This document shows, one piece after another, positions 12,516 to 47,300 of a stretch of DNA of 64,000 nt. The position numbers and the translations under genes were made by a program. The first letter of the stretch is position 1, and every line of letters starts with the position of its first letter. The stretch is from Opitutaceae bacterium (GTDB lineage: Bacteria; Verrucomicrobiota; Verrucomicrobiia; Opitutales; Opitutaceae), in NCBI GenBank assembly GCA_005792355.1, contig SXSC01000025.1, positions 1 to 64,000 of the forward strand. The letters run 5' to 3'. Below the pieces are notes generated by a model. It worked only from the letters and a program-made list of their open reading frames with translations. It was not told where the DNA came from and did not search any database.

Positions 12516-12520
12516 CGTGG

Positions 12521-28501: not shown

Positions 28502-28991
28502 GGAGGAAATGTTCGGTCCCGGAAACCAGGTGGGGTAGGTGGGGAGCGGGGAACGCAATCCTAACCATGAAGTGACTCCAAGCCCGGAATCCGCACGCTC
28601 GTTCGCTTTGGGTGTTACTCCAAACCGACAGAGCCGTCCTCCGCCGTCTCTGCGGTGCCAAACTCCGTGGGCCGCAAAGAGGCACCGGCGGCGCAAAAAG
28701 GACTGGATTGGTTCTTGCGCCTTCTTGCGGCCACAGCCTTGGCTCCCGGCTTCCAGCCCAGGAGTTGCCCACGGAATCCATGGAAGCGGCCTCAATCCCA
28801 GCCAAGGCCTTTGGCCGAAAAAAACGTAAGAGGACGAAGAAACGAGCCAGCCCTCGCGCCTCCGCGGCGGCTTTGGCCGCCAAGCCAATCCTCGCCCGGC
28901 CCTATCCGCCCCTTTTCGTTTTTTTCGGCCGTTCTTCCGAGGCTTGGTCTTCTTCCTGCATACGCGGTGCACCGGAGGCTATCAGGGGAAC
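28502..28991. other. Gene-free region between the amidohydrolase and TIR fragment B
   Basis: Divergent intergenic space. It holds dispersed-looking strings such as TTCTTGCGCCTTCTTGCGG and GCTTTGGCCGCCAAGCC (a short palindrome), and no credible gene. The TATGCACTCGCCA box (28992) starts just after it. Confidence 0.4.
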
Positions 28992-29004
28992 TATGCACTC
29001 GCCA
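28992..29004 (+). promoter_or_regulatory. TATGCACTCGCCA box upstream of TIR fragment B and T2
   Basis: Second copy of the box. It is followed by GTCTTGTTTTCAGCGT (29011-29026), which also follows the box at 39601 before T4. It is 63 bases upstream of fragment B, and T2 lies downstream of that fragment. Confidence 0.5.
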
Positions 29005-29066
29005 GCACGGGGTCTTGTTTTCAGCGTTCAGTCGCGCACACCCGCCTCCTGCGATCGTCCCTTTTC

Positions 29067-29156
29067 ATGCCCGCGTCCTCCCACCAGGCCGTCTTTCTGT
29101 GTTGCGCGTCCCAAGACGCGGCGGTTGCGCCTGTCCGGAGGTTAAGAGTCGTGTGA
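29067..29156 (+). pseudogene. TIR fragment B
   Basis: A 29-codon reading frame MPASSHQAVFLCCASQDAAV, then stop (29154-29156). The DNA before and after closely matches the T4 upstream region and start codons, so it is a truncated copy of a T4-like gene. T2 begins 75 bases later with its own intact TIR domain. Confidence 0.75.
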
Positions 29157-29172
29157 CGGCTTCGCGTCACAC
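29151..29172. repeat. Hairpin between TIR fragment B and T2
   Basis: GTGTGACG (29151-29158) pairs perfectly with CGTCACAC (29165-29172) around GCTTCG. The stop codon of fragment B lies in the left arm. No T-run, so it is more likely an RNA structure or a repeat than a terminator. Confidence 0.5.
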
Positions 29173-29230
29173 AACTCTCCGGGTCAGACGTCAGAGGCCG
29201 GAGGTCAGCTCAAGGCACCGGAGGTGTGCG

Positions 29231-32200
29231 ATGAGCGCGTCGGATCGGGCCGTCTTCTTGAGTTACGCTTCGCAGGACGCTGAAGCAGCCAAGCGGATAT
29301 GCGACGCGTTGAGATCGGCGGGCGTCGAGGTGTGGTTTGACCAGAGCGAGCTGGTCGGCGGCGACGCATGGGATGCGAAGATCCGGAAGCAGATTGCGGA
29401 GTGCGCGCTCTTCGTGCCGATCATCTCGGCCAACACGCAGGCGAGGGGCGAGGGGTATTTTCGGATCGAGTGGCGGCTGGCGGCGCAGCGCACCCACGCG
29501 ATGGCAGAGGACCAGGCGTTTTTGCTCCCGGTGGTGATCGACGCGACGACCGATGCGGCGGCGCGCGTGCCGAGCGAGTTCAAGGCGGTGCAGTGGTCCC
29601 GGCTTCGCCCTGCGGGCTACGCCGGGCAGGCCCGGCAGGGTGAAGAGAGGCGCGACGAGGCGATTGAAGCATTCTGCGGACGCGTTGGGAAACTGCTCGG
29701 TGGTAGCGCGGGGCTTCAGCCCGCGCTCGAAACGCCTGAGCGCGGGCTGAAGTCCCGCGCTACGCCGGAGCCGCGCCGCCGCGTGCCGGTGGCGGTTGGG
29801 ATCGCCGCGGCGGTGCTGCTCGTTGGCGCCGGTCTGTGGCTGACGCGTCCCGCCGCAGTGCCAACCCCGGACCTAAGGCGGAACGCCTTAGCCCCGACTC
29901 CTGCCGCCGCGTCGCCTGCCCTGAGCCCGTCGAACAAGCTTTCCGAAGCCCGCCAGCTGGTGGCCCAGGCTTGGATGCAGATGAACAAGAACGGCCGGGG
30001 CCGCGCGGATTTGGAGGTGGCCGACAGTCTCTGCAAGCGCGCACACGACTTGGATCCGAATGATGCCGGCGTCTGGGCGGCGTGGTCGCAGGTGGATTCG
30101 CTGTATGTGCGGGGCAATTTCGACGCCACGCCGGCCCGCCGCGAAAATGCGCGGGCGAAGGCCGCCCGGGCGTTGCGTCTGGCCCCGCAATCCTATGAGG
30201 CTCGCCTGGCGCAAGCCTGCTATCTCTTGCGGGGAGGTAACGAGGGACAGGCTCCGGTTTTTCCCGCGGAGGTGGAAAATCTGCTGCGCCAGCTCTTGCG
30301 GGAACAGCCGAACGAGCCGCGCGCGTTGGCGGCGCTCGCCATTTTGGCGAACAGCAACGGCAATCCCGACGAAGCCCGGACGTTAGTCCGACAGCTAACC
30401 TATGATCCCGTTTTCGGGACCGAGGCATGGACCCAGCTCGGGTGGACCGAATTCCTGTACGCGGCCGATTACCGGGCGGCCGAACTTGCCGCGGAGGCCT
30501 CGCTCGCGCGGGAGCGTTACACGGGTAATCTTCTGCTGTGGCTCTACCTCGCGCTCTACTGGCGGGGCGATCTGGAGCTCGCCAAGGCAACCCTGGAACA
30601 AATTCCGGCCGCGGGGCAGCAGGAGGATGTTGGGATGACGGCTGCCGCGCTGGTCCATTATTGGCGACGCGACGCCGACGCCATGCTCCGCGTGGTCGGC
30701 GGCTTTCCGCGTGATTGGGTGCAGTCGAACCCGTTCGATGGCCCCAAGGCGTGGTGGGGCGGACTGGCCCATCAACTTGCGGGCCGTCCCGAGCCGGCCC
30801 AGTTGCAGTGGCGCACGGCGTTGAGCGTCGTCGAGCGCAAGCTGGCGGAGCAGCCGGATGCCGCCGTGCTCCTCCGGTGGAAGGCCCGATTGCTGGCCAT
30901 CATGGGTGACCGGCGGGGAGCGGAAACCGTGCTGCAACTCGCCCATGGCCCGAATCCCCTCTGGGCCGAAATCGCCTACGTGGTCCCAGATCAAATCCGC
31001 CTCGGCAACTTCGACGCCGCCCTCTCGTTGCTCGAGCAGCGGGTGGAGCAGCGGGCAACGCACATCACCCTGGCGAGATTTCAGCGCGATCCCAGCTTCG
31101 ATGGCTTGCGCGACCAACCCCGCTTCCAAGCCCTGCTCGCCCGCCTCGCCGCCGACCCACGGACCTCGCCCCACGCTCCCACACCGCCTTCCACCCGAGC
31201 GGACAGCTCCGCTGTCCCGTCCTCCGTCTCGTCCCCCGTCTCGTCCCCCGTCTCGTCCCCCGTAGGCTTGGCGAATGGGGAAGGCTTGGCGAAGGGGGAA
31301 GGCCTGGCGAAGGCGGAAGCCAAATCCGCCCCGGCGGACCCGTCCTCCGTAGTCCCGGCGAAGGAGGACAAGTCCGTCGCCGTGCTGCCGTTCAGAAATC
31401 TCAGCAACGACCCGGAGCAGGACTATTTTTCCGACGGGCTCACCGAGGAGGTGCTCGGGGCGCTGCGGCGCGAGCGCGATCTGATCGTGCCGGGCAACAC
31501 CTCATGTTTTTCGTTCAAGGGCAAAAACGTCGCCCTGACGGAAATCGCCCGGTTCCTCAACGTCGCTCGCCTCGTCGAGGGCAGCGTGCAGCGCGTCGGC
31601 AGTCGCGTGCGCATCCGCGTGACGCTCGCGCGGCCCGCCGACAATTCCAGCGAGGACCTCGGCACGATTACAAAGGAACTCACCGACATCTTTGCGTTGC
31701 AGGACGAGGTCGCCCGTGCCGTCGTCGCGAAACTCACCCGCCGCGCCACCACGGCGCCGGTGGCCGGGCTGACGAAGAATCCCGCGGCCTACGACGCCTA
31801 CCTGCGCGGCCGGGCCGTGCAGGCGCGGGGATTCTTTTCGGTTCCTGCAGCCATCAAGCAGCTCGAGCAGGCGGTGGCGCTCGATCCTGATTTTGCGCTG
31901 GCTTTGGTGTCACTGGCGGAGGCGAAAGTATTTCGCTATGCTGCGAATAGCGACCGCAGTCCGGAACTGGCCGATGAAGCCCGCCGCCTGATCGACCGGG
32001 CGCTGGAGCGGCAACCGAACTTTCCTGAGGCGCTGGTCCAACGGGCCAACTGGGAGCGGCACGTGAAATCGGATTACGCGGCGGCGCAGCGCGATCTCGC
32101 CCGCGCGGAAGCCTTGCAGCCGGCCACGGTGGAGTTGCGAAATATTCAGGCCTTTGTCGCGCGTGACCTCGGGCAATGGGACGAGGCGTTTCGTTTTTCA

Positions 32201-33007
32201 CGGGAAATGGTGCAGATCGATCCGAACAACGTCGAATATATGGTAGGCCATGCGACGGACATTTTCTGGCGCAAAGGCCGCTTTGCCGAGGCCGACCGAC
32301 TGCTCGCGCGGTCCGAAGAGCTGCAAGAGAAAATTTTTTCCCATCGGGTCACGCTGCGCCTGATCTGGCGGGGACCGGAGGCCGCGCTGCGGCTGTTCAA
32401 CCGCGCGGCGGCCGATTCGCCGGAGAGGAATATGCAGCGCATCGACTTGCTGCTGGCCCTGGATCGCCCGCAGGAGGCTCGCGCCCTCGCCACCGAAAAA
32501 GCGAGCGACCTGTTACCCGGGGTGACGGACGGCCTGGTATTTCCCGCGTTGCACGGCGCGTCGCTCAGCCGATTGCTCGCCCTCGGACACAAAGAGGCGG
32601 CCCGTCGTCTGGCGGAAGAGATTAGCGCCTGGGCGGCGAAGGAACTCGCACGGGGCAATCGCGCGACGTCGCCGCAATCCTTGTTCATCCGGGCTGAGCT
32701 CGTCCTGGGACGTCGCGACGCGGCCGTCGCCGCGTTGGAGCAATGGCGGCGGGAATATCAGTTGGTGCAAAACCACTATCAGCGTATGGTCCGGGGATGG
32801 CACCTCGCCTCGGTGTGCGCCCTGCTCGGCCAGGTGGAGCTGGCGATTGAGCTGCTGCGCGAGTATGCGGCGAGCGGTCTCCATTTTCCCAGCAGCCTGC
32901 GCTACAATCCCGATTTCGCGCTGGTTAGGAACGATCCACGTTTTCAGGAATTGACACGGCAGCAGGAGGCGTGGGCGAAGGCGCAGCCGGACCCGGTGGA
33001 TCTATGA
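29231..33007 (+). CDS. T2: TIR-TM-TolB-like-TPR protein
   Basis: 1258 residues, the longest paralogue. TIR domain (about 6-155, Glu80 in EGYFRIEWRLAAQR) contains an extra 11 residues at its end. Then a palindromic linker, membrane helix (about 184-203), a second palindromic segment giving PDLRRNA, and a helical middle region like T1's. Tandem repeats follow (SSPV, then GLANGEGLAKGEG) just before the TolB-N-like domain (about 713-835, DKSVAVLPFRNLSNDPEQDYF). C-terminal TPRs run to about 1240. ATG at 29231. It shares its ATGA stop with T3, so the two are coupled. The TolB-like domain here is divergent (GNTSCFSFKGKNVAL). Confidence 0.9.
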   Translation: MSASDRAVFLSYASQDAEAAKRICDALRSAGVEVWFDQSELVGGDAWDAKIRKQIAECALFVPIISANTQARGEGYFRIEWRLAAQRTHAMAEDQAFLLPVVIDATTDAAARVPSEFKAVQWSRLRPAGYAGQARQGEERRDEAIEAFCGRVGKLLGGSAGLQPALETPERGLKSRATPEPRRRVPVAVGIAAAVLLVGAGLWLTRPAAVPTPDLRRNALAPTPAAASPALSPSNKLSEARQLVAQAWMQMNKNGRGRADLEVADSLCKRAHDLDPNDAGVWAAWSQVDSLYVRGNFDATPARRENARAKAARALRLAPQSYEARLAQACYLLRGGNEGQAPVFPAEVENLLRQLLREQPNEPRALAALAILANSNGNPDEARTLVRQLTYDPVFGTEAWTQLGWTEFLYAADYRAAELAAEASLARERYTGNLLLWLYLALYWRGDLELAKATLEQIPAAGQQEDVGMTAAALVHYWRRDADAMLRVVGGFPRDWVQSNPFDGPKAWWGGLAHQLAGRPEPAQLQWRTALSVVERKLAEQPDAAVLLRWKARLLAIMGDRRGAETVLQLAHGPNPLWAEIAYVVPDQIRLGNFDAALSLLEQRVEQRATHITLARFQRDPSFDGLRDQPRFQALLARLAADPRTSPHAPTPPSTRADSSAVPSSVSSPVSSPVSSPVGLANGEGLAKGEGLAKAEAKSAPADPSSVVPAKEDKSVAVLPFRNLSNDPEQDYFSDGLTEEVLGALRRERDLIVPGNTSCFSFKGKNVALTEIARFLNVARLVEGSVQRVGSRVRIRVTLARPADNSSEDLGTITKELTDIFALQDEVARAVVAKLTRRATTAPVAGLTKNPAAYDAYLRGRAVQARGFFSVPAAIKQLEQAVALDPDFALALVSLAEAKVFRYAANSDRSPELADEARRLIDRALERQPNFPEALVQRANWERHVKSDYAAAQRDLARAEALQPATVELRNIQAFVARDLGQWDEAFRFSREMVQIDPNNVEYMVGHATDIFWRKGRFAEADRLLARSEELQEKIFSHRVTLRLIWRGPEAALRLFNRAAADSPERNMQRIDLLLALDRPQEARALATEKASDLLPGVTDGLVFPALHGASLSRLLALGHKEAARRLAEEISAWAAKELARGNRATSPQSLFIRAELVLGRRDAAVAALEQWRREYQLVQNHYQRMVRGWHLASVCALLGQVELAIELLREYAASGLHFPSSLRYNPDFALVRNDPRFQELTRQQEAWAKAQPDPVDL
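29604..29636. repeat. 28-bp insert in the T2 TIR end with 5-bp duplication
   Basis: CCGGC occurs on both sides (29599-29603 and 29632-29636) of a 28-base segment starting TTCGCC and ending CTACGCCGGGCAGGC. A related segment, flanked by a different 5-bp duplication, is found at the same place in T4. Insert plus duplication is 33 bases, so the frame is kept. Confidence 0.65.
29703..29763. repeat. In-frame palindrome in the T2 TIR-TM linker
   Basis: 26-base arms, 29703-29728 and 29738-29763, with one mismatch (GTAGCGCGGG.CTTCAGCCCGC type). It belongs to a different sequence family from those in T3, T5 and T6 but at the equivalent protein position. Confidence 0.8.
29836..29895. repeat. Degenerate palindrome after the T2 membrane helix
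   Basis: Arms at 29836-29858 and 29873-29895 are a decayed version of the GTGGCTGAGGCG family seen at the same position in T4 and T8. It encodes the PDLRRNA stretch. Confidence 0.55.
31220..31318 (+). repeat. Tandem repeats before the T2 TolB-like domain
   Basis: Three and a half 12-base units (TCCCCCGTCTCG type, 31220-31263), then three 18-base units (GGCTTGGCGAAGGGGGAA type, 31265-31318). Both unit lengths are multiples of three. They encode SSPV and GLAKGE repeats in a flexible linker. Confidence 0.8.
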
Positions 33008-35367
33008 GCGCAGCGGACAACAAAGCCGTCTTCCTCAGCTACGCGTCGCAGGATGCGGCCGTGGCGCAGCGCATCTGCACGGCGCTGCGCGCCGCCGGCG
33101 TCGAGGTATGGTTCGACCAGAGCGAACTCGTCGGCGGTGATGCGTGGGATCGGAAAATCCGCGAGCAAATCGCGGCGTGTGCACTGTTCGTCCCGATCAT
33201 CTCGGCAAACACGCAGGCGCGCAAGGAGGGCTATTTCCGGCTGGAGTGGAAACTCGCCGCGCAGCGCACCCACATGATGTCGGAGCGCTCGGCGTTCCTT
33301 CTACCCGTCGTGATCGACGCGACGCGCGATGCCGACGCCGACGTGCCCGCGGAATTTCGCGCCGTGCAGTGGACGCGCCTGCCGGGCGGCGACACGAGCG
33401 CCGCGTTTTGCGCTCGGGTGACAACGTTGCTCAGCGGCGCTGACGTGGCCCGGGTCTCCCGACCCGTGGGTTTGGGCAACACGGGTCAGGAGACCCGTGC
33501 CACGCCGGAGGTGGGTCGCCGCATCCCGGCGGCGGCCTGGGTGGGCGCGCTGGCCGTCATCGCCATCGGGGTGGGTGCGACCTTTCTTGCCACGCGCAAA
33601 TCCGAATCGGCTGCGCCGAATGCGGGCGCAGGCCCGCGCCCGGCGACCCCTCAATCCCCGACCCTCGACCCGAGACCCTCGGATCAACCGAAGGTCGACC
33701 AGAAATCCCTCGCCGTCCTCCCGTTTGACAATCTCAGCACCGAAAAGGAAAACGAGTTCTTCGCCGACGGCATGCACGACGAGTTGCTCACCGCGCTCGC
33801 GAAGGTCGGCGCCCTCAAGGTCATCTCGCGCACGACCGTGCTCGCCTACCGCGATCCGGCGAAGCGCGGCCTCACGCTCAAGCAGATCGCCGCCGAACTC
33901 GGCGTGGCCAATATCCTCGAAGGCACCGTGAGCCGTGCGGCGGGCAGCGTGCGTATCAAAGTGAAGTTGATCGACGCCGCGACCGACCAGTCGCGCTGGG
34001 AAGAAACCATCATCCTCAAGGCCGTGACGGACGTTTTCGAGGCGCAGGCCGACATCTCCGGCAAGATCGCGCAGGCTCTCGCCGCCACACTTTCGCCCGA
34101 GCTGAAACTCGCGCTCGCCAAGAAACTCACGAACGACCCCGCCGCCTACGACCTCTACCTCCGCGCGCGTCGCTGGCGGGAGATGAAAGAAATCGGAAAC
34201 CCCGCCAAATATGAGGAGGTCGTAGTGGCCCCCCTCGAACAGGCCGTCGCGCTCGATCCGAAATTCGCCGTCGCCTACGCCGAGCTCAGCCAGGCTCACT
34301 CGTATCTCTATTGGTTCAAGACTATGGATCCCACGCCCGCCCGGCTGGCGAAGGCGAAGCAGGCCGTCGACACGGCCTTGCGGCTCGATTCGGCGCTGCC
34401 GGTCGCGCATAGCGCCCTCGGGTATTACCATTATGTCGGCTCGCTCGACTACGCGCGCGCGACGGAGGAATACGCCATTGCCCTCGCGGGGATGCCCGGA
34501 GACTCCGATGTTCTAGATCTTCTCGCGATGACGCAACGCCGGCAAGGCCGATGGGCGGAAGCGACCGTCAACCTCGAGCGGGCGTTCGCCATCAACCCGC
34601 GTAACCTGAGCATTTCCTCGTCGTTGGTGGAGTGCCTCCTCGCTCAGCGCTACTACGCGCGGGCCGAACAGGCCGCGGAACGAGCACTGGCCATCGATTC
34701 TGCGAATGGCCCAATGCAGGCCTATAAGGCGCAGGCTCGCTTCGCCCGCGATGGAGATCGGGTGCGGTATCGATCTGCTTTCGCTGCCACCCCCCCCGCG
34801 GCACAGGTACCGGAGACGCGGGATCAGCGACTCAGGCAGTTTGCAGAGGCGATTGAGGATGGGCGGTTTGCGGACGCCGTTAAGATCGGCGATGCAGTGC
34901 CGGATTGGCGCGGGATAGGGACCTTCGATGTCAACCTGCACCGTCACTTTTTTGCCCTGAAGGCCGTCGGGGAACACGAGCAGGCGCGCGTCCGTGCGCT
35001 GGCCGCGATCGCCGGAACGACGGCGGAAGGGACGCACCACCGGCTTGAATGGCAACGGGTCGCGCGGCTAGCGATGCTCAATGCCTACGCGGGACAGCCC
35101 GACGAGGCGCGACGGCTCGCGGACCGCGCTCTGGAGTTGATGCCTTTGAAACGCGATGCGCTGGAAGGCGTGCCCACGCTCGAGGCAGTGGCGCAGGTCC
35201 ACCTCGCGCTCGGCGATCGCGACCGCGCGCTCGCTCTGCTCGACCAGGCACTGGGCGTCCCTGGCATGTTGATCGCAAACGTGCTCCGCCTCGAACCGTG
35301 GTGGGCCCCGCTGCGCGACGACCCGCGCTTCCAGGCCGCCCTCGCGAAAGCCGCCCCGCGGGATTGA
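33004..35367 (+). CDS. T3: short TIR-TM-TolB-like-TPR protein
   Basis: 787 residues; lacks the 400-residue helical middle region. TIR domain 7-145 with Glu81; palindromic linker (about 147-167); membrane helix (about 178-198); Pro-rich linker; TolB-N-like domain about 234-360 (KSLAVLPFDNLSTEKENEFFADGMHDELL); TPRs about 380-760. Its TolB and TPR parts are nearly the same as those of T6, so the two are recent relatives. ATG at 33004 overlaps the T2 stop. The next gene is 490 bases on, so it ends this transcription unit. Confidence 0.9.
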   Translation: MSAADNKAVFLSYASQDAAVAQRICTALRAAGVEVWFDQSELVGGDAWDRKIREQIAACALFVPIISANTQARKEGYFRLEWKLAAQRTHMMSERSAFLLPVVIDATRDADADVPAEFRAVQWTRLPGGDTSAAFCARVTTLLSGADVARVSRPVGLGNTGQETRATPEVGRRIPAAAWVGALAVIAIGVGATFLATRKSESAAPNAGAGPRPATPQSPTLDPRPSDQPKVDQKSLAVLPFDNLSTEKENEFFADGMHDELLTALAKVGALKVISRTTVLAYRDPAKRGLTLKQIAAELGVANILEGTVSRAAGSVRIKVKLIDAATDQSRWEETIILKAVTDVFEAQADISGKIAQALAATLSPELKLALAKKLTNDPAAYDLYLRARRWREMKEIGNPAKYEEVVVAPLEQAVALDPKFAVAYAELSQAHSYLYWFKTMDPTPARLAKAKQAVDTALRLDSALPVAHSALGYYHYVGSLDYARATEEYAIALAGMPGDSDVLDLLAMTQRRQGRWAEATVNLERAFAINPRNLSISSSLVECLLAQRYYARAEQAAERALAIDSANGPMQAYKAQARFARDGDRVRYRSAFAATPPAAQVPETRDQRLRQFAEAIEDGRFADAVKIGDAVPDWRGIGTFDVNLHRHFFALKAVGEHEQARVRALAAIAGTTAEGTHHRLEWQRVARLAMLNAYAGQPDEARRLADRALELMPLKRDALEGVPTLEAVAQVHLALGDRDRALALLDQALGVPGMLIANVLRLEPWWAPLRDDPRFQAALAKAAPRD
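33445..33503. repeat. In-frame palindrome in the T3 TIR-TM linker
   Basis: 24-base arms 33445-33468 and 33480-33503 (two mismatches), CACGGGTC...GACCCGTG family, the same family as in T8. Confidence 0.8.
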
Positions 35368-35857
35368 CCGCGCGCGGCGCGCGGAACCCGCCACCGGCGG
35401 GCAAGCGCTCAACCCTCAACTTTCAACGTTCAACGCTCAAGTGATGAAATGGAAATTCATCCTTCGGGGGCGGAGACGATGGGGTCAGGTCGCGGATCGC
35501 GTATTCAGCTGCGAATCCGCGATCCGCGACGTGACCCCCTTCGCGCTTCTGTTAATAAGAGGGCGTCGGAAAGGCCCACACTATTCCTGTTTTCGGAGGG
35601 CGCTGGTCTCTCAGCGCCGCTCTGGCGGGTCACGGCGGCGACGAAGCGCCGCCCTCCGAAAGAACGGGTTTTTCGACGCCTTCTCCGCGCTTCTCAGAGA
35701 GCTTCCGGCCCGGACATTTCGCAGCGCGGTCCGAAACCGCCACAAGACTTGGAGGGCTGGGCTGCTCCCCGGCCGAATCCCGTTTCTCCTTCGATTGCGG
35801 TTGCCGCGGTGCGAAAAATGCGGGCTAGACTTTTTCCGGCCTGGCCTCGGCGACTCG
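35368..35857. other. Intergenic region with a REP-like element
   Basis: About 490 bases without a credible gene. It contains a large hairpin (see 35481-35538) and a CTCAACTTTCAACGTTCAACG string (35410 onwards) resembling one after T8 (56905). The rest shows a Phe/Lys-rich chance frame only. Confidence 0.5.
35481..35538. repeat. REP-like hairpin GGGGTCAGGTCGCGGATCGCG
   Basis: GGGGTCAGGTCGCGGATCGC (35481-35500) pairs with GCGATCCGCGACGTGACCCC (35519-35538) with one mismatch; the inner bases TATTC and GAAT extend the stem. The GGGGTCAGGTCG end resembles sequences that accompany REP-associated tyrosine transposases (RAYTs). No RAYT gene is in the window. Confidence 0.65.
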
Positions 35858-37144
35858 TTACCGAGTCGCCTTCCGCGCGGCGTCACGCTCCGGGTGCTCA
35901 AAGGCTTCGGTGAACGCTTCCAGTTCCCGCACCGTCAAGCCGAGGGCGCGACCGAGTTTCCGCCAGCCGCTCACCGCCCGTTCGACCTCCCGCAATATCT
36001 CCTTTGCCCGTCGCCCCGTTACTCGGAAGTAGGCGGTGACAGATAGCAGGGCGTTGATCGTCGCTTCCGGACCGGTTTCTTGGGAAACCCAAGTCTTCAG
36101 TTCCCGGGCGCGGTCCGGAAACGGATTGAGGTCGAAGGCCGGGGCCAACCGCCAGAGCCCGCGCTCGACGTGCAGAAAGCCGTGGTTGTGGAGGTGATCA
36201 TCGACGTTCGTGATCAAGATGGAAAACGCCATGCGCCGCCAAAGCTCTTCGCAGTCGGCGCGGAAGTCGGCCCCATGAACGCGCAAGGCATCGACGATCT
36301 CCGTGTAGAAGTGCTCCTCCGTTGTCCCACGTTCGACTCCCATCAGCGTGGCGGCCGAGACATACAGCAAACGCCGCCCCTCACCGGTCCGGTCGAACCG
36401 CTGTATCAGTGCCACCGGCACACCGTCGCTGTCGATCAACCTCGTGTCGGCGGCAGTGATGCCCGCTTTTCGGGCCAGGTGCATCGCCAGCACCTCGCCT
36501 TTGGTCACCGCCCGCTCATCCTGCACGCTGGGGAACTTCCCGATGGCCAGCCGGCCATCGCCGTCAACGACGGTGCATTTTGGCCGGAGTCCGCCGAGCG
36601 AAGTCCCCCGGCCCCTGAGAAAGGCGAGATCTGCGAGCGTCTCCGTCTCCGTTTCAACCGCGCGCGTGGCGGCCAGCAGATGCCCCAGTTCTACCAAGGG
36701 CGGAACCGTGCGTTTTCCCGGTTCCGAGGCGCGCCGGAAGACTCCGTCCTCAGCTTTAAACCTCAGTGCCCCGACCCGGCTGCCGTCATCCACCGCGAGC
36801 AGGAAGTCCACCGCATTGAGCTGCGCAGGCGCCGCATCGCCGCCAGTCCGACGGGCGGCTTGGCGGCGTTTGGCGTGGTCGCGCACGATCACCCGTCGGC
36901 CCCAGCCATCGGGTTCGGTGTCGGCGATGGCAGAAGGGAACACCGAGCCATCGGGGATCTTGCGCTGAAACTGTGGGCCCGCCACCAGCGGCAAATCCGG
37001 TGCCAGGGCAAACCGATCCGGCGCCGCCAGCCACGATTCATCATAGGCAAATGCCGCCCACTCCCTGGCGCCGTTCAGATCGCAGTGCAGCGTGCCGACC
37101 CGGCGCGCCTCAGCCCCGAGCAAGACGTGAAGCGCGCGTTTCAC
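35858..37144 (-). CDS. hipA: HipA-type serine/threonine kinase toxin
   Basis: 428 residues. HipA kinases phosphorylate glutamyl-tRNA synthetase or related targets and cause growth arrest. Visible: the N-terminal domain (FAYDESWLAAPDRFALAP), the Gly-rich loop region GTSLGGLRPKC, the catalytic loop TNVDDHLHNHGFLH with Asp and Asn, and the metal-binding APAFDLNPFP. The full length suggests an active kinase. It overlaps the upstream hipB stop by four bases, antitoxin first, the standard order. Located between TIR genes T3 and T4. Confidence 0.93.
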   Translation of the reverse strand: MKRALHVLLGAEARRVGTLHCDLNGAREWAAFAYDESWLAAPDRFALAPDLPLVAGPQFQRKIPDGSVFPSAIADTEPDGWGRRVIVRDHAKRRQAARRTGGDAAPAQLNAVDFLLAVDDGSRVGALRFKAEDGVFRRASEPGKRTVPPLVELGHLLAATRAVETETETLADLAFLRGRGTSLGGLRPKCTVVDGDGRLAIGKFPSVQDERAVTKGEVLAMHLARKAGITAADTRLIDSDGVPVALIQRFDRTGEGRRLLYVSAATLMGVERGTTEEHFYTEIVDALRVHGADFRADCEELWRRMAFSILITNVDDHLHNHGFLHVERGLWRLAPAFDLNPFPDRARELKTWVSQETGPEATINALLSVTAYFRVTGRRAKEILREVERAVSGWRKLGRALGLTVRELEAFTEAFEHPERDAARKATR

Positions 37145-37485
37145 AACGAGGTGGGAATTTTTCTGATTCTGACGCGTTTCGGCAGCCGCTCTTCCTCCAA
37201 CTGCAAGCCCACGTCGTCGCGGCGGGCATCGACCAAGTCGCCAAGGGGCCCGCCGAATCCCAGGACAAACAGCGCCATCGCATAGGCGCCCATCGTTACG
37301 GTTGGGTCTCCCTGCTCAACGCGCCGGTAGGTGCTGGGCGCCACTCCCATCCGTTCGGCCATCATGGCCATGGTAAGGTGCCGCCGACGCCGGGCATTCC
37401 CGAGATCCTGGCCGAACTTCGCCAGGGAACGTCGCACGGCAGGCGGCATGAAGGCATGGAAGGAGGGTTTCATATAAGCATTCAT
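37141..37485 (-). CDS. hipB: HipB-type antitoxin
   Basis: 114 residues; a Xre/Cro-like helix-turn-helix about residues 28-62 (LGNARRRRHLTMAMMAERMGV) followed by a beta-rich C-terminus that likely contacts HipA. The start may be the ATG at 37485 or the one at 37473. Its stop overlaps the hipA start. Likely represses its own promoter through the palindrome at 37480-37493. Confidence 0.85.
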   Translation of the reverse strand: MNAYMKPSFHAFMPPAVRRSLAKFGQDLGNARRRRHLTMAMMAERMGVAPSTYRRVEQGDPTVTMGAYAMALFVLGFGGPLGDLVDARRDDVGLQLEEERLPKRVRIRKIPTSL

Positions 37486-37493
37486 TTATGAAT
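37480..37493. promoter_or_regulatory. Candidate HipB operator
   Basis: ATTCAT-TT-ATGAAT, a perfect 14-base palindrome covering the start of hipB, in an unusually AT-rich patch. Antitoxins of this type usually repress their own operon by binding such sites. Confidence 0.45.
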
Positions 37494-37707
37494 TACTGCG
37501 CACCTTAGCAAGCAATAGATGAGGTGTAATGATGCCGTCTTGCTCCGAGGAAACTACCGGGATCAATCCAATTTCACTTGGTTAAGTCGGCGAAATCCCC
37601 CCGGTGAAAACTTCGGGATTGGAGGCGGGGTGAGATGCACCCCGCCCCCATTCATTCGTAACCAAGCAGAACGAATCGCCGGCTCGCCGGGATCTCACGC
37701 CCGAGAA

Positions 37708-39129
37708 TCATCTGGCGGCGGCCATCCGCGCCTTGAACTGCTCCCGCGCCGTTTTCAGCACGCCGGCATACTCGGGTTGGCCGACGACGTTCGTGTACTG
37801 GTGGGGGTCCTTGACCATGTCGTAGAGTTCTTCCCCACCCTCTCCGTAGTTCAAGTAATGCCAGTTGGCCGCGCGCAGCCCGCCGCCCGTACGAGGATGA
37901 ATCGACAACGCCGCATCGCGCCCAGTGGCCTCCGGATTTCGCAGGATTGACGCCAGACTCCGGCCATGCAGGCCGGCCGGCGTTGGCAGGCGGAGGAGAT
38001 CGGTGCAGGTGGGATAAAAATCCACCAGCTCCACCAGCGACTTCGTCCGGCCCGGCTTCAGGCCGGGCGCACAGACGATGAACGGTACGCGCGCAACCTC
38101 CTCGTGCAGGTTCGATTTCTGCCAGAATCCATGTTCGCCGAGATGGTAGCCGTGGTCAGTGGTAAAGACGATGGCCGTCGAGTCGCGTAATCCGAGGCGT
38201 TCCAGTTCATCGAGCACCCGGCCGAGTTGTTCATCCATGAACGAAACCGACGCGTAATACGCCTGCCACATGCGGCGGCGGCCCTCCTCGTTGTCGTTGA
38301 GCCCATTGCCATCGGATCCGCGGCCGGCCGGAGGAATATCGTCCAGGTCTCCGGAAATCTGGGGAGGAATCTCGAGCTTGTCGTGCGGGTACAGATCAAA
38401 GAACCGCTTCGGCTGCACCAGCGGGAAATGCGGCCGGACAAAACCCACCGCCAGGAAGAAGGGCTTGCCCGCCGCCTTGCGCTCTTGGAGCACCTGAATG
38501 GCCTTCGTCGCGACCAGGTAGTCCGCCTGATCCGAGCCATCGTTTACATCCGTCTCGACGGTCGCCCACATGCGATCGGGGCCCTTGGCGTCACGGCCTT
38601 CGGTCTGGCGGGTCACGACGCCAGAATTGAGCAGCCGGTAAAGCCCCGGAGAAAACGTCTCGGCCGAGGTGGTGTTGTGGCGTTCAGTCCAGCATTCCGG
38701 CACGTCCGCGCCGTTGCTCCCGTCGAGTTGCGCATGTGGCACCGGCATGTGAAACACCTTCCCCACCCGGGCGGTGTGCAGGCCGAACTGTTGCAGGTGT
38801 TCGCCCAGGGTGGGCGCGCTGGCCGTGGACTTCGGGTAAATGCTCCGCATGAATGACGGCCGGGACGGGGCGCAGACCAGTCCTTGGCAATAGGCGCGTT
38901 CGAAGACCATCCCGGACGTCGCCAATCGGTCGAGATTGGGCGTCCGGCAAACGGTGTTGCCGTAGGCCGGAAGCACGCTGGCCTTGAGGTCGTCGGACAG
39001 GAGAAAGAGGATGTTCCTGATCTTGCCCGGGGGGAAACTCGGAACCGCGGCCGAGAGGACGGGAGTGATGCCGAACACAACCAGGCAGCAACGGAGCAAC
39101 CAAATAAACCCGGGAGACGGCGATGTCAT
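37708..39129 (-). CDS. Secreted sulfatase (iduronate-2-sulfatase-like)
   Basis: 473 residues. Signal peptide (FIWLLRCCLVVFGITPVLSA, about 8-27). Formylglycine motif CAPSR with Cys86 and metal-binding Asp46-Asp47 (NILFLLSDDLKAS). Further family marks: GKVFHMP, KPFFLAVGFVRPHFPL, and TTDHGYHLGEHG with metal and catalytic residues. It hydrolyses a sulfate ester of a glycan or glycosaminoglycan-like polymer. An anaerobic-type or FGE maturation enzyme would be needed; none is in view. The ATG at 39129 is the one that puts the signal peptide at the N-terminus. Confidence 0.92.
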   Translation of the reverse strand: MTSPSPGFIWLLRCCLVVFGITPVLSAAVPSFPPGKIRNILFLLSDDLKASVLPAYGNTVCRTPNLDRLATSGMVFERAYCQGLVCAPSRPSFMRSIYPKSTASAPTLGEHLQQFGLHTARVGKVFHMPVPHAQLDGSNGADVPECWTERHNTTSAETFSPGLYRLLNSGVVTRQTEGRDAKGPDRMWATVETDVNDGSDQADYLVATKAIQVLQERKAAGKPFFLAVGFVRPHFPLVQPKRFFDLYPHDKLEIPPQISGDLDDIPPAGRGSDGNGLNDNEEGRRRMWQAYYASVSFMDEQLGRVLDELERLGLRDSTAIVFTTDHGYHLGEHGFWQKSNLHEEVARVPFIVCAPGLKPGRTKSLVELVDFYPTCTDLLRLPTPAGLHGRSLASILRNPEATGRDAALSIHPRTGGGLRAANWHYLNYGEGGEELYDMVKDPHQYTNVVGQPEYAGVLKTAREQFKARMAAAR

Positions 39130-39676
39130 GGGATCGAACTCACGGCGGCAGCATGCTGAGTGCAAGGTTGGAGATTGAAAATGCACGCAAGAAAACAGCA
39201 GATTCAGATATAGCAGCGCGGCCTTTTTTCGAGACCGCGCTCGAAAAAAGTGGCGTGCTTCGCACGCAGCCGGATTTGCACCACCGAGACGCAGAGGACA
39301 CAGAGAATACCGCCTGCCGAAAAGCCCGGCCAAGGCGACTCACTGACGGGGTGAAGCACTTTCCCTTCAATTTCTTGGTCTTCTCCTCTGTGGTAAAATG
39401 GTCTGGTTATGCCGTTAAGCACTAGAACCAACATGTTGGTCTCTACGCTCGAATTGCTAGGCAGATAAAGGCAGATGAATCTCCGGGCATCTGCGCCATC
39501 TGCGTCATCTGCGGTTAATGCCTTGGTTCTTGCCTTTGGTTGAGGATCCCGGGCCGCGTTGGGAACTTTCCGGGCCAGCCGTGGCCGGCCGGCGGGGAAC
39601 TATGCACTCGCCAGCCATGGGTCTTGTTTTCAGCGTGGGATCGTCTCTTTCCGCACCCACCGATTGGCATTTTTTG
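39130..39676. other. 547-bp repeat-rich intergenic region upstream of T4
   Basis: No gene. It contains ACCGAGACGCAGAGGACACA (39282-39301), CATCTGCGCCATCTGCGTCA (39488-39507) style strings that look like dispersed repeats, a perfect 14-base palindrome ACCAACATGTTGGT (39428-39441), and the conserved box at 39601 with the following GTCTTGTTTTCAGCG. Confidence 0.55.
39601..39613 (+). promoter_or_regulatory. TATGCACTCGCCA box upstream of T4
   Basis: Third copy of the box, 64 bases before the T4 ATG, followed by GTCTTGTTTTCAGCGT as in fragment B. Precedes the whole T4-to-T8 run. Confidence 0.5.
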
Positions 39677-42600
39677 ATGTCCGCGTCCGCCCACCAGGCC
39701 GTTTTCCTCAGCTACGCGTCCCAGGACGCCGCGGCGGCCGCGCGCATCTGCGAGGCGCTGCGGGCCGCGGGCGTCGAGGTGTGGTTCGACCAAAACGAAC
39801 TCGTCGGCGGCGATGCGTGGGATGCGAAAATCCGGAAACAAATCGCGGATTGCGCGCTGTTTGTGCCGGTGATCTCGGCGGCGACGCAGGCGCGGCTCGA
39901 GGGGTATTTCCGGATCGAGTGGAAGCTCGCGGCGCGACGCACGCACGCCATGGCGACCGCCAAGGCGTTTCTGCTTCCGGTCGTCATCGACGACACGCGC
40001 GACGCCGAGGCCCACGTGCCGGATGAATTTCGCGACGTGCAATGGACCCGCCTTCGCCAAGCCTACGGCGGGCAGGCCCGCCTGCCCGGCGGCGAGGCGC
40101 CGGAGAAATTCTGCGCGCGGGTGCAGGCTCTCCTGGCTGGCGAAGGTAGGGACGCCTCTCTCCCTCGACAGGCTCGGGACGCTGAGCTTGTCGAACGCGC
40201 GAGGCGTCCGGCGTCCGATGCCGGCGAGAGCCCCGGACGTCTCGGAGAGACGTCCCTACCCACAAAACCCGCGGGCCGCGTCCCAGCGGCGGCATGGATC
40301 GCCGCGGCTGCATTGACGCTCGTCGTCGCGGCCGGTGCTTGGCTGTGGCTGAGGCGCCCCGCCTCAGGTCCGGGGCCTGAACTGAGGCGAGACGCCTCAG
40401 CCACGACTACGACCACCGCCACGCCCCTTTCCGAGGCGCGGAAACTCACCCTCCAGGCGCGCGCGTTGATCGACGACGACCCGGTGGCGGTGCGGCAAAA
40501 TTTCATCCTCGCGGAGGAGCTGTGCAAAAAGGCCGTCGCCCTCGATGTGTCGGATGGCGAGGCCTGGGCCACCTATGCGCGGGTGAGCCTGGGGTTTTGG
40601 GAATGGGGCTACGACGATACGCCCCGCCGGCGGGAGTTGGCCCGAAGCCAGAGCCAGAGAGCCATCCGGCTCGCGCCCGACTCGATCGAGGCCGGTTTGG
40701 CCGAGGCTGGTCTCGCCTATTTTTCACGGCCACGGTACGAACTGACCGAAGTGGGTGCCGAGCCGGAAAGGCGTTTACGTTCACTTCTGCGCCAGGCTCC
40801 GACCGATCGGAGGATTTATCGTCTGCTGGCGAACACCGTTGCTCGCTCCGGTCAGGCTGAGGAAGCCTCGGCCCTCCGCCAAAAATCTAACGCGCTGCCC
40901 GGTGGAGATCCCCAGGCGCTTTCCGACGATGCTGTGATCGATTCTTCCCGCAATCCATGGGAGGCCGACCAAATGCTCGATCGCGTATTTGCGGCTACTC
41001 CCACCAAGGCGGCCTATTATTGGCGGCTGGGCATTCGCGTCCATCGGAAGGGCGATTTGGACGCCGCCCGGATGTTTCTTGCGACGATTCCGGAGCAGTT
41101 GATGAGCGAAGACCTCTTCGCCGCCCAAGCCTATATTCTCTGGCTGCGCCTGGGCGACCCGGCGAAGGCGCTCGCTGCGATTGAAAAGATCCCGCGCGAT
41201 TTCATTGAGGAGCGGCGGCAAATATATCCCCGCGCAACGCTGGTAGGACTTGCTCATGCCCTCGCAGGCCGGGATGCAGCCGCCAAGATCAAGTGGAGAG
41301 AAGCGCTGCGTCTCGTCGACCAACGCCTCACGACTGAGTCCAACCAGCCCGTTTGGGTTTTCAACAAGGCCCTGTTGCTGGCCTTGCTTGGGGATAAGAC
41401 GGCGGCGAAGGAGCAGTTGGATGCGTTTCGCCAGCTCGGAGCCTATGCGGAATTCCTCGCTTCCGACGGGACGCCAATCGTCCTTCTCTTGCTGGGCGAA
41501 ACCAACGAAGCGATCGGCGAGTATCAACGCCTCATGGCTAGAACTGGGATTTTGCGGATGCTGCCGTTGAGCGCCCTGCGCTTTGATCCGCTGCTCAAGC
41601 CCATCCGCGACGACCCGCGCGTGCAGGCGATGATCAAGGAAGGCCTGGCCTGGCTCGAAGAAAGGCGCCTCGCGGCGGCGACGAATCCCGCCACCACGAC
41701 CAACGCACCTGCCCCCACTGCCCCATCTCCTTCGCGTCAGCCCGAGGGGGACGCGAAGTCCGTCGCCGTGCTCGCCTTCAAAAACCTCAGCGGCGATCCG
41801 GCGCGCGAATTTTTCTCCGATGGGTTGAGCGAGGCGGTGACGGATGTGCTCGGGCGCGTGCCGGGCCTGAAGGTCGTCGGCAGCGCCTCGGCGTTTTCCT
41901 TCAAGGGCAAGTTTGTGCCGATCCCGGAAATCGCGCGGCAGCTCGGCGTGACTCATCTCGTCGAAGGCACCGTGTTGCAGGAGGGGCAGACGGTGCGCAT
42001 CACGGCGAAGCTCATTCAGGCCGACGGATTTCAAGTGTGGGTCTCCGACAAACTCGACCGCGAGCTGAAGAACATCTTCGCCCTGCACGACGAGGTCGCC
42101 GGGCTCATTGCGAAAAATCTCTCGCTGAAACTCGGGGCGAGTTCCGCCGCGTCGAAGGCCGCGGTGAATCCGGAAGCCTTCGAACTCTACGTGCAAGCCC
42201 GTCAGGCGTTGAATCTGCTGACGCCGGAGGGGTATGATCGGGCCGAAAGCGCGCTCGACCAGGCGCTGAAGCGCGAACCGAACTTCGCCCGCGCCCACGC
42301 CGCGCTCGCTGACGTTTGGAAGGAACGTTACCGTCGCGGCCGGCAGGCGGTCGAAGCGGAGGATCAGAACGAGACCGCGCGCATCCTGGCGAAGATCAGA
42401 CAGGCGCTCGCCCTCGATCCCGATTCGACCGAAGCCCACGTTTCGCACGGAGTGTTGCTCATGGTAAACCGCAAGTATTCCGAGGCGGAGCCGATCCTCC
42501 GCCGGGCCGTGGCCCTCAACCCGAACGATGCAGCGGCCCGGGATGCGCTCGGACGGGCGCTGCTCAACCGCGGCAAAATGGATGAGGCGTTGGTCCAACT

Positions 42601-43162
42601 CAAGCTCTCGACCGAACTCGATCCGCTGTCTTGGTATTTCTGGGGCTATTACGGCGAAGTGCTGCGCATCGCCGGCCGAACTTCGGATGGAATCAAGGCT
42701 TTGGATCGCTCCCTCGGGTTGAGGCCGGATTTTAGCTATACGGTCGCGTGCAAGAGCTTTGCTCTGCTCGAACTCGCTCGTGTCACCGAGGCCGTCGCAC
42801 TCGTCAGAGGCATTTCAGGCGGACCCTGGACCACCGAGGGCGCCAGACTCCGCGTCTTTGCCCGGGCGGGCTTGAAGGCCGAAGCGGAAGCACTGCTCGC
42901 CGCGTCCCGACCTCCCGGCTATACCTCCTTCCGCTGGGAGGCCGGCAGCCTCGTCGCGCTGGGACGAATCGAAGAGGCAATGGCGCTCCTGACCTCGCAA
43001 TGGAGCAGTTCTGGTGACCTCTGGGACTCAATCTACGACCCGGTGCGCAACGATCCACGCTGGGTGAAGTTCCTTGCGGACGCCGGCCTGACCGAAGCCC
43101 ACGCCCGCGCGCAGGCGTGGCGGAAGGCGCATCCGGCGGAGAAGGCGGTGGCCAGACCTTGA
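39677..43162 (+). CDS. T4: TIR-TM-TolB-like-TPR protein
   Basis: 1161 residues; ATG at 39677 gives the paralogue start MSASAHQAVFLSYASQD. TIR domain 7-155 with Glu81 and a 10-residue insert near its end (RQAYGGQARL). Palindromic linker with a second repeat nested inside, membrane helix (about 203-223), and a palindrome-encoded segment RPASGPGPELRRDAS. Helical middle region to about 680. TolB-N-like domain 692-815 (KSVAVLAFKNLSGDPAREFFSDGLSEAVTDVLGRVPGLK), then TPRs to about 1140. TolB and TPR parts pair with T8. First gene of the long run that ends with T8. Confidence 0.9.
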   Translation: MSASAHQAVFLSYASQDAAAAARICEALRAAGVEVWFDQNELVGGDAWDAKIRKQIADCALFVPVISAATQARLEGYFRIEWKLAARRTHAMATAKAFLLPVVIDDTRDAEAHVPDEFRDVQWTRLRQAYGGQARLPGGEAPEKFCARVQALLAGEGRDASLPRQARDAELVERARRPASDAGESPGRLGETSLPTKPAGRVPAAAWIAAAALTLVVAAGAWLWLRRPASGPGPELRRDASATTTTTATPLSEARKLTLQARALIDDDPVAVRQNFILAEELCKKAVALDVSDGEAWATYARVSLGFWEWGYDDTPRRRELARSQSQRAIRLAPDSIEAGLAEAGLAYFSRPRYELTEVGAEPERRLRSLLRQAPTDRRIYRLLANTVARSGQAEEASALRQKSNALPGGDPQALSDDAVIDSSRNPWEADQMLDRVFAATPTKAAYYWRLGIRVHRKGDLDAARMFLATIPEQLMSEDLFAAQAYILWLRLGDPAKALAAIEKIPRDFIEERRQIYPRATLVGLAHALAGRDAAAKIKWREALRLVDQRLTTESNQPVWVFNKALLLALLGDKTAAKEQLDAFRQLGAYAEFLASDGTPIVLLLLGETNEAIGEYQRLMARTGILRMLPLSALRFDPLLKPIRDDPRVQAMIKEGLAWLEERRLAAATNPATTTNAPAPTAPSPSRQPEGDAKSVAVLAFKNLSGDPAREFFSDGLSEAVTDVLGRVPGLKVVGSASAFSFKGKFVPIPEIARQLGVTHLVEGTVLQEGQTVRITAKLIQADGFQVWVSDKLDRELKNIFALHDEVAGLIAKNLSLKLGASSAASKAAVNPEAFELYVQARQALNLLTPEGYDRAESALDQALKREPNFARAHAALADVWKERYRRGRQAVEAEDQNETARILAKIRQALALDPDSTEAHVSHGVLLMVNRKYSEAEPILRRAVALNPNDAAARDALGRALLNRGKMDEALVQLKLSTELDPLSWYFWGYYGEVLRIAGRTSDGIKALDRSLGLRPDFSYTVACKSFALLELARVTEAVALVRGISGGPWTTEGARLRVFARAGLKAEAEALLAASRPPGYTSFRWEAGSLVALGRIEEAMALLTSQWSSSGDLWDSIYDPVRNDPRWVKFLADAGLTEAHARAQAWRKAHPAEKAVARP
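40054..40083. repeat. 25-bp insert in the T4 TIR end with 5-bp duplication
   Basis: CGCCT at 40049-40053 and 40079-40083 flanks a 25-base segment (TCGCCAAGCCTACGGCGGGC and so on) that is absent from T5 to T8 and related to the T2 insert at the same protein position. Insert plus duplication is 30 bases, so the frame is kept. Confidence 0.7.
40145..40260. repeat. Nested palindromes in the T4 TIR-TM linker
   Basis: Outer arms GGTAGGGACGCCTCTC (40145-40160) and GAGAGACGTCCCTACC (40245-40260) are the same family as T5. Between them lies a different repeat, CTCGACAGGCTCGGGACGCT...GAGCTTGTCGAACGC (40163-40198), itself self-complementary. One repeat inserted in another, all in frame. Confidence 0.7.
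40345..40404. repeat. Palindrome after the T4 membrane helix
   Basis: GTGGCTGAGGCGCCCCGCCT and following (40345-40367) pairs with 40382-40404, two mismatches. Same family and position as in T8 and (decayed) T2. Confidence 0.75.
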
Positions 43163-44383: not shown

Positions 44384-47300
44384 GCGCTGTGCCCAAGGCC
44401 GTGTTCCTGAGCTACGCCTCCCAGGACGCCGAGGTGGCGAAAAAAATTTGCGAGACCCTGCGCGCCGCGGGCGTCGAGGTGTGGTTCGATCAAAGCGAAC
44501 TCGTCGGCGGCGATGCGTGGGATGCGAAGATCCGGAAGCAAATCGCGGATTGCGCGCTGTTCGTGCCGGTGATCTCCGCGGCGACGCAAGCGCGCACGGA
44601 AGGCTATTTTCGGCTGGAGTGGAAACTCGCCGCGCAACGCACGCACATGATCGCGGACGATGCAGCGTTCGTGCTGCCCATCGTGATCGACGACACGCGC
44701 GATGCGGACGCCCGCGTGCCGGCGGAGTTCAAGGCGGTGCAATGGACGCGGCTGCCGGGCGGGGAACCCGCGGAGAAGTTTTGCACCCGCGTGCAGGCGC
44801 TGCTCGGGGGAGAAGGTAGGGACGCCTCTCCGAGGCGTCCGTCGTCGGATACGAGCGCAAGTCCCGGACGTCTCGGAGAGACGTCCCTACCCGCGAAACC
44901 GTCCCGCCGCGTCCGTGCGATGGCATGGATCGCCGCGGCCGCGGTCATCGGCCTCGGCGTTCTTTACTTCGCATTGCGTCCCGAAAGAAATGCCGGTGCC
45001 GGAACGCGCCCCTCCGCCGCGCCGCTCTCCGAGGCGCGCAAGCTGGTCGCGCAAGCCCGCCAGCTTTTCGAGGAGGGCGACGATGCGAATCGGCAGAATT
45101 TTTTCACGGCCGAGGAATTGCTCAAGCGCGCGCTGGCGCTCGACCCCACCGACGGCGAGGTCTGGGCGGCGCAGGCCCAGCTCTCCGGCGTTTTCGAGCT
45201 TTTCTCCTACGATCGCACCCCGGCCCGGCGTGAGGCGCGGCAGATGCAGGCGGAGCGGGCGCTCAAGCTGGCCCCGAACTCGTTCGAAGCCGAGCTCGCC
45301 TACGTGGGACACCTCCGTCAAGTGCGCACTCCCGCCGCGATTGCCGAGGCCATTGCGCGTGGTCAGGCGTTGATTGCCCAGCGGCCCGCCGATTCACGCG
45401 TGCGCCGCGCCCTTGGGCTGATTCTCTCAAACACCGCTGAGCATTTTGAAGCGGCGCTCACCGAATTCGACCGGGCCCATGCACAACCTGGCGGCGATCC
45501 CGTAGCGCTGACCACCAAGGCGGCCGTGCTCTTCACCGCCGGGCGCTGCGCCGAGGCGGAGCAAACGGTGGCCACCGCGTTCGCCGCCCGTCCGCTCGGC
45601 CGGTTGCTGGTGCAGGATGCCCTGCTGAAACTCTGCTGGCGAGGCGATCTCGACGGCGCGGCCGCCGCGCTCGATCGGTGGCCCGCGTGGCTTTTTCTCG
45701 AGGACCGCGGCGCGTTTGCGGCCGGCTCCGTCTGGTTGTGGCGCGGTGAATTCGACCGGGCACTGGCCGTTTTTCGAGCAGCCCCGCGGGACTATTTCCA
45801 AGATCACATTTTCACGGGACCGCGCAGCGCACTTGTTGCCATCGCGCTCGAACTCGCCGGACGCCCGGACGCCGCCCGCGAGGAATGGGTCAAGGCGCTG
45901 CACGTGGCGGAGGCTGCGCGGGCCAACGATGACTATCGGCTGAGCGCGGCGACCTGGCGGGCGGTGGCGTTGAGCAGAACCGGAGACGCCACCGCGGCGA
46001 CGGCCGCCTTCCGCAGCCTTGAGCAGAACGGCAATGGCTCGCTCGGTCGCCCCGGAGCGTTTTGGTGGCCGCTCACGGTCTTCGAGGATGGCTATGCGGT
46101 GCTGGGTCGAGCCGAGGAGGCCCTGCCGGCGTTTCAACGCTTCGCCGTCACGTCGTCGGGGCAGTATCCCCGGGCCGCGCTGCAGTTGAACCCCGCGTTT
46201 GCCGGATTCCGCAAGGATCCACGCTTTGCTGCACTCCTCACCGGCGCCACCGCTCCCGCTGGGCCGAAGTCCGCCGATGATCGGGTCGTTGCGACCGCCG
46301 CCCCGGCGGATAAATCCGTCGCCGTGCTCGCCTTCGCCAATCTCTCCGACGACAAGGCCAACGAGTATTTCTCCGACGGCATCAGCGAGGAACTGCTCAA
46401 TGTGCTGGCGAAGGTGCCGGGCCTGGCTGTGCGCGGGCGATCCTCGGGTTTTTATTTCAAGGGCAAGCAGGTCAAATCCGCTGAGATCGGCCAGCAGATC
46501 AACGTGGCTTACCTCGTGCAAGGCAGTGTGCGCCGCGCCGGCGACCGCGTGCGCATCTCGGCCCAGCTCATCCGCAGCGCGACCGACGAGGTCGTCTGGT
46601 CCTCCGGCTCACTCGACCGCGACGTGAAAGACATCTTCGCTGTGCAGGACGAGATCGCCGCGAAGATCGCCGCTGCCCTCACCGACAAGCTCGGGATGAC
46701 CTTGCCGGTGTCGGCCAAGACCATGCCCGAGGCCTACACCCTCTATCTGCAGGCCCGGGCCACCCTGGCGAAGCGTGGTGTGTCCAACCTCCGCGAAGCC
46801 GTCCGCATGTTTGAAAAGGTGACCACAATGGATCCCGACTACCTGCCCGCCCGTTCAGGGATGGCCATCACCTTGGCGTTACTGCCCGCCTGGAGCCGCT
46901 CCTTGAGTTTGGGCGAGGGTCTGGACTTGATCAACCGGGCCAGGCGCGAAGCCCGGCTGGTGATCGACCGCCAGCCCGGCAATGCCGAGGCTTGGTCCGC
47001 CTTGGGGCTAATCTACTCCTCTTATGACTGGCGCTGGCAGGAGGCCGGCGAGGCGGTCGTCCGCTCCCTGGCTTTGGCACCGAATGACGCGGAAATTGTG
47101 AATTTCGCGGGCGACTACTACCGCCTCGTGCTCGCCGACCCGCAGGCGGTTGCGACGGAAAAACGGGCGGTAGAGCTAAATCCCTTGCAAGTGGTCAACC
47201 ACAACGACCTCGCCGTTTGTCATTTGGCCTTTCGCCAATACGAACTCGTCATCGAGCCGGGGCGCCGGGCCATCTCCATCGCGCCGGAGCAGGTGGAGAA

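Follow-up and report, generated by a model that had tools for sequence, protein, structure and literature searches.

How did two TIR genes of one bacterial genome come to carry a short hairpin behind the same tryptophan codon without losing their reading frame? Both genes lie in the window, i.e., the whole 64,000-nucleotide stretch analyzed here, which is part of contig C223 (GenBank SXSC01000025.1) of an Opitutaceae genome of 8.4 Mb in 416 contigs. Each of its eight genes T1-T8 encodes a TIR domain. T2 (28655-33007) and T4 (39518-43162), the only two that were scanned for tetratricopeptide repeats (TPRs), have TPRs beside the TIR domain. T2 and T4, their inserts and insertion points, and the further copy in the window are on the forward strand; (-) marks the reverse strand. 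An initial annotation proposed that small elements of one type had been inserted independently into T2 and T4 and had duplicated 5 bp of the target. Its observation was partly confirmed and its interpretation partly supported. The inserts are probably copies of a non-autonomous hairpin repeat resembling repetitive extragenic palindromes (REPs), placed separately at one nucleotide of the TIR loop.

Two inserts in the TIR loop

The 33-bp insert of T2 (29598-29630) consists of a CCCGGC arm, TTC, an inner GCCC-TGC-GGGC stem, TAC, a GCCGGG arm, and a CAGG tail. The 30-bp insert of T4 (40047-40076; R1 model match C223:40045-40078) has a CCCGCC arm, the core TTCGCCAAGCCTAC, a GGCGGG arm, and the same tail. 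The cores are related, as had been proposed, but they fall into two subtypes, T2 having a 7-nt loop segment with the inner GCCC/GGGC stem and T4 a 4-nt loop segment. Both inserts follow the conserved QW in the loop ahead of the last TIR helix, and both keep the frame with their 33 and 30 bases. The insertion point lies after TGGT in T2 (29594-29597), i.e., the W codon and one base of the codon that follows, and after TGGA in T4 (40043-40046). It is the same in all 15 tabulated TIR copies of both subtypes. The paralogue L045 presents the empty site, ACCCGCCTGCCCGG, and has CCCGCCTGCCCGG at the place where CCCGCCTGCCCGG follows the insert in T4. The uninterrupted LPGGE that had been ascribed to T5-T8 is kept in T5, T6, and T8, whereas T7 reads LPADE (T3 reads LPGGD).

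The annotated CCGGC-28 bp-CCGGC (29599-29636) and CGCCT-25 bp-CGCCT (40049-40083) are present exactly as described, but the direct repeats extend beyond 5 bp. They comprise six bases in T2 (CCCGGC, 29598-29603 and 29631-29636) and seven in T4 (CCCGCCT, 40047-40053 and 40077-40083). In both genes, the left copy belongs to the element itself: it forms the 5' arm of the hairpin and pairs with the right arm ahead of CAGG. The right copy of T2 is identical to the left arm, and T2 alone cannot tell a native from a duplicated sequence. The right copy of T4 matches the native TIR codons of L045. This uninterrupted paralogue already reads ACCCGCCTGCCC at the place of the T4 insert, so in T4 the arm is the same as the native sequence.

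A search of the PDB with the TIR profile returned three matches, which extend at most over profile positions 3-65, so that by sequence none of them covers the insert loop. The predicted model of T4 has a predicted local distance difference test (pLDDT) score below 50 at residues 115-132, the stretch before the last helix; with a mean pLDDT of 60.6 and only eight sequences behind it, the model is a rough guide only.

A dispersed hairpin family and its sites

The 30-bp family has the consensus YCCNNC-TTCGCC-NNNN-CTWC-GNNGGR-CAGG, from which the 33-bp subtype differs by a longer inner stem. A search for the core in the genome, which the initial annotation had suggested, gave 33 matches to the 26-nt consensus of the T4 type at three or fewer mismatches, versus none for the reversed control. 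A covariance model, searched with strict filters and rough E-values, found 61 matches in the genome and matches in 35 of 54 genomes, this one included; the element is thus dispersed in both genome and genus. In 27 copies (L020 was left out), the six outer pairs are formed in 95.1% of the cells. Double changes account for 20 stem cells versus 6.4 ± 2.4 in shuffled data, none of 500 shuffles reached this number, and sliding the partner abolished the signal. These double changes are compensatory and establish the outer stem; the 30-bp type is thus a REP-like repeat, dispersed and hairpin-forming. A 14-nt core and the CAGG tail are common to unrelated loci and genomes. The window holds a further 30-bp copy outside T1-T8 (60427-60456; model match C223:60425-60458). 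Among four loci submitted to Rfam (L006, L007, L229, and L246), only tRNAs reached the gathering score and the element matched no family.

The profile built on T1-T8 matches 96 places in the genome, 85 of which cover at least 107 of the 139 positions. One TIR type is thus very largely expanded, partly as tandem genes within the window. All 15 tabulated TIR copies, six of 30 bp and nine of 33 bp, lie at TGG[A/T]^. The 30-bp copies are those of T4, C50, C196, and the TIR remnant C400 in this genome, a decayed one in G025, and one in JACRKC; the 33-bp copies are those of T2 and eight other TIR genes or gene ends. That C400 is a TIR remnant and L216 a TIR end was decided by visual inspection. The C2 gene combines both subtypes, its 33-bp copy containing a 30-bp one. 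Altogether, 15 of 79 TIR genes of this genome have something inserted in the loop: a 30-bp copy in three, a 33-bp copy in six, another repeat a few bases on in five, and one unclear case. A set of 81 TIR ends from 80 loci (the best 80 of 375) had four such inserts, three of them in the already known L094, L079, and L156; L079 and L156 are decayed and absent from the 15-copy table. Since five relatives were fetched for match lengths hinting at an insert, insert frequencies in relatives are biased.

A TIR match is no more than 500 bp away from five of the 33 pattern places (0.5 expected), TIR-end copies being counted in. Chance would bring at least three of 61 copies to the exact nucleotide of 85 sites with a probability of about 4e-11 if the events were independent and the genome were equally open to them, which it is not. 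Survival in a tolerant loop must account for part of this recurrence, but hardly for the single nucleotide.

The 3' ends of tRNA genes form a second hot spot, with the element at L203 1503, L246 1501, L229 1501, L233 1501, L225 and L249 1530 (-), and others. Among the 77 copies compared below, 23 have an arm that starts with CCA. In 13 of these, an intact tRNA gene (Glu, Ser, Leu, Met, or Arg) precedes the copy, whose first base is the first base of the CCA. One more (L235) adjoins a partial copy that starts at a tRNA CCA, seven follow a tRNA 3'-end remnant as judged by eye, and two do neither. The count covers the fetched copies; the pattern search gave further CCA-armed ones. At two tRNA loci, the Rfam tRNA match stops at the base directly before the element, and the first three bases of the element serve as the CCA of the tRNA. 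In this genome, neither of the two CCA-armed matches lies at an intact tRNA (C202 follows a remnant and C230 does neither). Within the genus, the element is right at the 3' end of tRNA-Glu in three of 19 full-length copies (G008, G011, and G014) and absent in 16. The window has a single detected tRNA, a tRNA-Glu (12518-12595, -), which lacks the element.

Copies also occur in frame in L019, L020, and L022 near position 1500, in an apparent N-terminal part of a protein kinase that was read by eye from DLSAxGxAKxEE before IGRYKL. A nested arrangement is seen in L005 (1363-1396, -), L031 (1501), and L032 (1501), where the 30-bp element is enclosed by a larger repeat that has GGGGTTCC to one side of it and a GGG..CACCCCGC-like end opposite.

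Flanking bases and the origin of the inserts

The separate placement of a REP-like hairpin has to be weighed against a single old insertion that gene conversion, or shuffling of modules at the loop, carried from one TIR paralogue to others. We regard such spreading as unlikely, though worth serious attention. It would accord with the near restriction of the 33-bp type to TIR genes and with some helix-plus-linker modules that recur with different TIR domains. Three 30-bp copies also have a common CAC[GA]AATCG right flank, which may mean that recombination has passed downstream modules between genes. In the 60 bp upstream of the inserts, identity is 0.764 in 30-bp pairs versus 0.760 in uninserted pairs of like identity farther upstream (6 pairs), and 0.697 versus 0.693 for the 33-bp type (45 pairs). 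This speaks against conversion tracts but leaves room for an exchange of downstream modules. Gene conversion is thus unsupported by upstream identity. Moreover, the exact junction is kept before unlike sequences, and the 30-bp type is present at dozens of other loci. On a tree of 107 TIR genes (79 from this genome and 28 from relatives; 119 columns), the 30-bp label requires four changes, at least three of them forced by starred branches, and the 33-bp label seven, at least three of them forced; neither label clusters beyond shuffled labels. Because the host genes are scattered on the tree and an upstream conversion tract is missing, the independent insertion first proposed for T2 and T4 fits better than gene conversion.

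The initial annotation regarded the inserts as the products of target duplication, i.e., a classical miniature transposon with a 5-bp (or 6-7-bp) duplication whose outer copies decayed in old insertions. For this view, which we consider improbable, the bases after CAGG were compared with the left arm in 77 of the 106 model matches (left out were 11 same-place or near-identical matches, L250:1167, and 17 matches above about E 1e-5). The 77 copies are not all independent (e.g., L019/L020 and two of L210), and they are no random sample because their loci were picked as best matches or by the CCA-arm pattern. At least four arm bases are repeated in 16 of the 77 copies, over a span of four to nine bases, versus 3.7 with shuffled partners. 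Without the CCA-armed and TIR copies, the count is 7 of 50 versus 1.95 expected, and the first base is strongly linked as well: T follows in 10 of 21 dispersed copies with T-arms and in 1 of 27 with C-arms (p = 0.0004). Among the 15 TIR copies, all six arm bases are repeated in T4, T2, L144, L064, and L216, five in L154, four in L094, three in JACRKC, and one or none in the other seven, so that T2, T4, and five more (7 of 15) repeat at least four and 8 of 15 repeat up to three. Arm bases that lack a partner in the stem fit the right flank in L249 and L144.

A fixed length is not seen in any of this. The repeat varies from zero to nine bases, and 61 of the 77 copies repeat three or fewer; duplications around other copies are therefore found above chance in a minority, and a 5-bp target duplication was rejected as a rule. 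A looser test for any shared 5-mer, using 28 of the 33 pattern matches (three near-identical copies and two unfetched places were left out), gave 8 copies versus 8.6 for shuffled partners. The absence of duplication concluded from this test is weakened by the excess in the sharper prefix test. The direct repeat is a real minority feature of variable length. Arm and right flank differ in C50 (CCCACC/CGCGGC), C196 (CCCGCC/CACAAA), C400 (CCCGCC/CACGAA), JACRKC (CCCTCC/CCCGCC), and G025 (CGCGGC/CACGAA), whose hairpin is decayed. The intact hairpins of C50, C196, C400, and JACRKC stand before unlike bases, and the arm there therefore looks like the element's own. The same arm and flank statistics would follow from insertion that prefers arm-matching places. 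Formation of the hairpins in place by replication template switching, as quasi-palindromes without insertion, would suit the arm-flank matches of some copies and the stems that change yet stay paired, but it is very hard to credit, since in-place copying could not give unrelated loci and genomes a common 14-nt core and CAGG tail.

Besides the shared right flank, several points weigh against separate placement of a mobile REP-like hairpin. The single-stranded DNA fold energies are unremarkable for the T2 copy (-10 kcal/mol, z -1.2) and the T4 copy (z -0.6), so the case for the hairpin depends on covariation. The TIR tree stands on only 119 columns with many forks open, and the decayed G025 copy was missed by the covariance model. 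The 33-bp pattern has five matches in this genome versus none in the control, all five at TIR ends; among relatives, two TIR ends of G015 and one of G025 carry it, and in G003 and G009 it lies elsewhere. This near confinement is odd for a freely moving element. The genome has 23 matches to Y1 transposases, and no good element copy was found at the 20 places looked at, where some stretches were ended by contig ends; weak matches with two, three, and four mismatches occur near three of the 20 (L184, L176, and L183). The mobilizing enzyme was not identified at these 20 places. Across 18 genomes, the numbers of Y1 transposases and elements show no clear correlation (rho 0.31, p 0.21), nor do the numbers of elements and TIR genes (rho -0.06). 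Mobilization by a REP-associated tyrosine transposase (RAYT) thus found no clear support, as the 20 places had no good flanking copy and the number correlation was weak.

For separate placement of a REP-like hairpin, the element may move as a single strand through an enzyme acting in trans and may settle immediately upstream of bases that agree with its 5' arm at one to nine positions; the agreement of arm and right flank at the first base in dispersed copies favors this. The protein would survive because the insert length is a multiple of three, the frames used have no stops, and the loop is flexible. A stronger form, which we put forward tentatively and hold to be rather doubtful, is that the hairpin is mobile and specifies its target by its stem. 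It would insert on the 5' side of a sequence identical to its left arm, and the arm would rebuild the displaced CCA or T-R-L codons so that the gene is not destroyed; stem changes would then retarget the element.

Relation to known repeats and surroundings of the inserts

GTAG- and CGTC-tagged REPs are abundant in Opitutus terrae, intragenic and in-frame copies included, and different REPs occur at about the same recB site in two Xanthomonas species; REPs with alternative complementary stem bases are also described (PMC3733652). As a short palindrome in many copies, the present element resembles GTAG-tagged REPs, but it has no GTAG at its end; the 30-mer ends in CAGG, and CTAC or CTTC is internal (CTAC being GTAG in reverse). 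It shares in-frame copies within open reading frames with CGTC-tagged REPs and Rickettsia palindromic elements, but a CGTC end is missing. In the Rickettsia elements, palindromic DNA likewise lies in frame in many reading frames and is CGTC-tagged at one end, whereas here one site of paralogues is hit repeatedly. Unlike for GTAG and CGTC REPs, no transposase gene was found beside the element at those 20 of 23 Y1 places, one exact nucleotide is reused in one gene family, and tRNA 3' ends are a second site. The element is set apart from the O. terrae families by description, not by consensus. Because it acts like REPs but lacks their end tag, we assigned it to neither the GTAG nor the CGTC REPs.

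The size and nesting recall the very small mobile repeats of cyanobacteria, reportedly described by Elhai in 2008 as 20-30 bp long and nested in other repeats; those belong to another lineage, and the element here is a hairpin with variable arms. Transposons of the IS200/IS605 type choose their target by short pairing with a part of the element and leave no fixed target duplication. Such guide-target pairing is an analogy only, as neither an enzyme nor a reaction is at hand here. Miniature inverted-repeat elements of DDE transposases differ in their fixed-length target duplication and in their length of 70-300 bp (PMC3733652) versus 30 or 33 bp.

In-frame REPs are thus already known, also in Opitutus, and the new features are the exact recurring site and the arms that fit the target. 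The literature search returned, among the papers listed, nothing pertinent on palindromic repeats at tRNA ends or on Opitutaceae TIR genes with REPs. The spread of this repeat class has been called poorly understood (PMC8266576). With one site and scores of paralogues with and without an insert in several genomes, the TIR genes amount to a natural experiment that allows the insertion rule of a REP-like repeat to be read. A causal arm-target match would provide a testable targeting rule for such repeats.

PADLOC reported nothing beyond partial TIR-domain matches for T1, T2, and T4. Among the best 80 of 375 matches, the named records nearest to the TIR genes of the window are metagenome-assembled genomes labeled Opitutaceae, Opitutia, Opitutus, and similar, or just Verrucomicrobia, and two named records have proteobacterial labels. 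In T2, an 18-bp tandem repeat, CCTTCGCCAAGCCTTCCC (31265-31313, -), with GLAKGE-like units resembles the left half of the element. Repeats build new loops within this greatly expanded TIR family. In L057, L123, L136, L066, and L127 of this genome and in L157 of G018, the TIR loop that takes up the hairpins contains repeats of other types, CTTCGACAGGCTCAGG and TTCGACCAGCTCAGG, which are in frame and positioned downstream by a few bases. The linker after the TIR domain is partly made of further palindromic repeats read in frame (29700-29764, 40146-40259, 44816-44890, and 53896-53954), and an inverted repeat with arms of at least nine bases is found in this linker in 33 of 73 TIR genes of the genome, compared with 6 of 73 for the TIR part.

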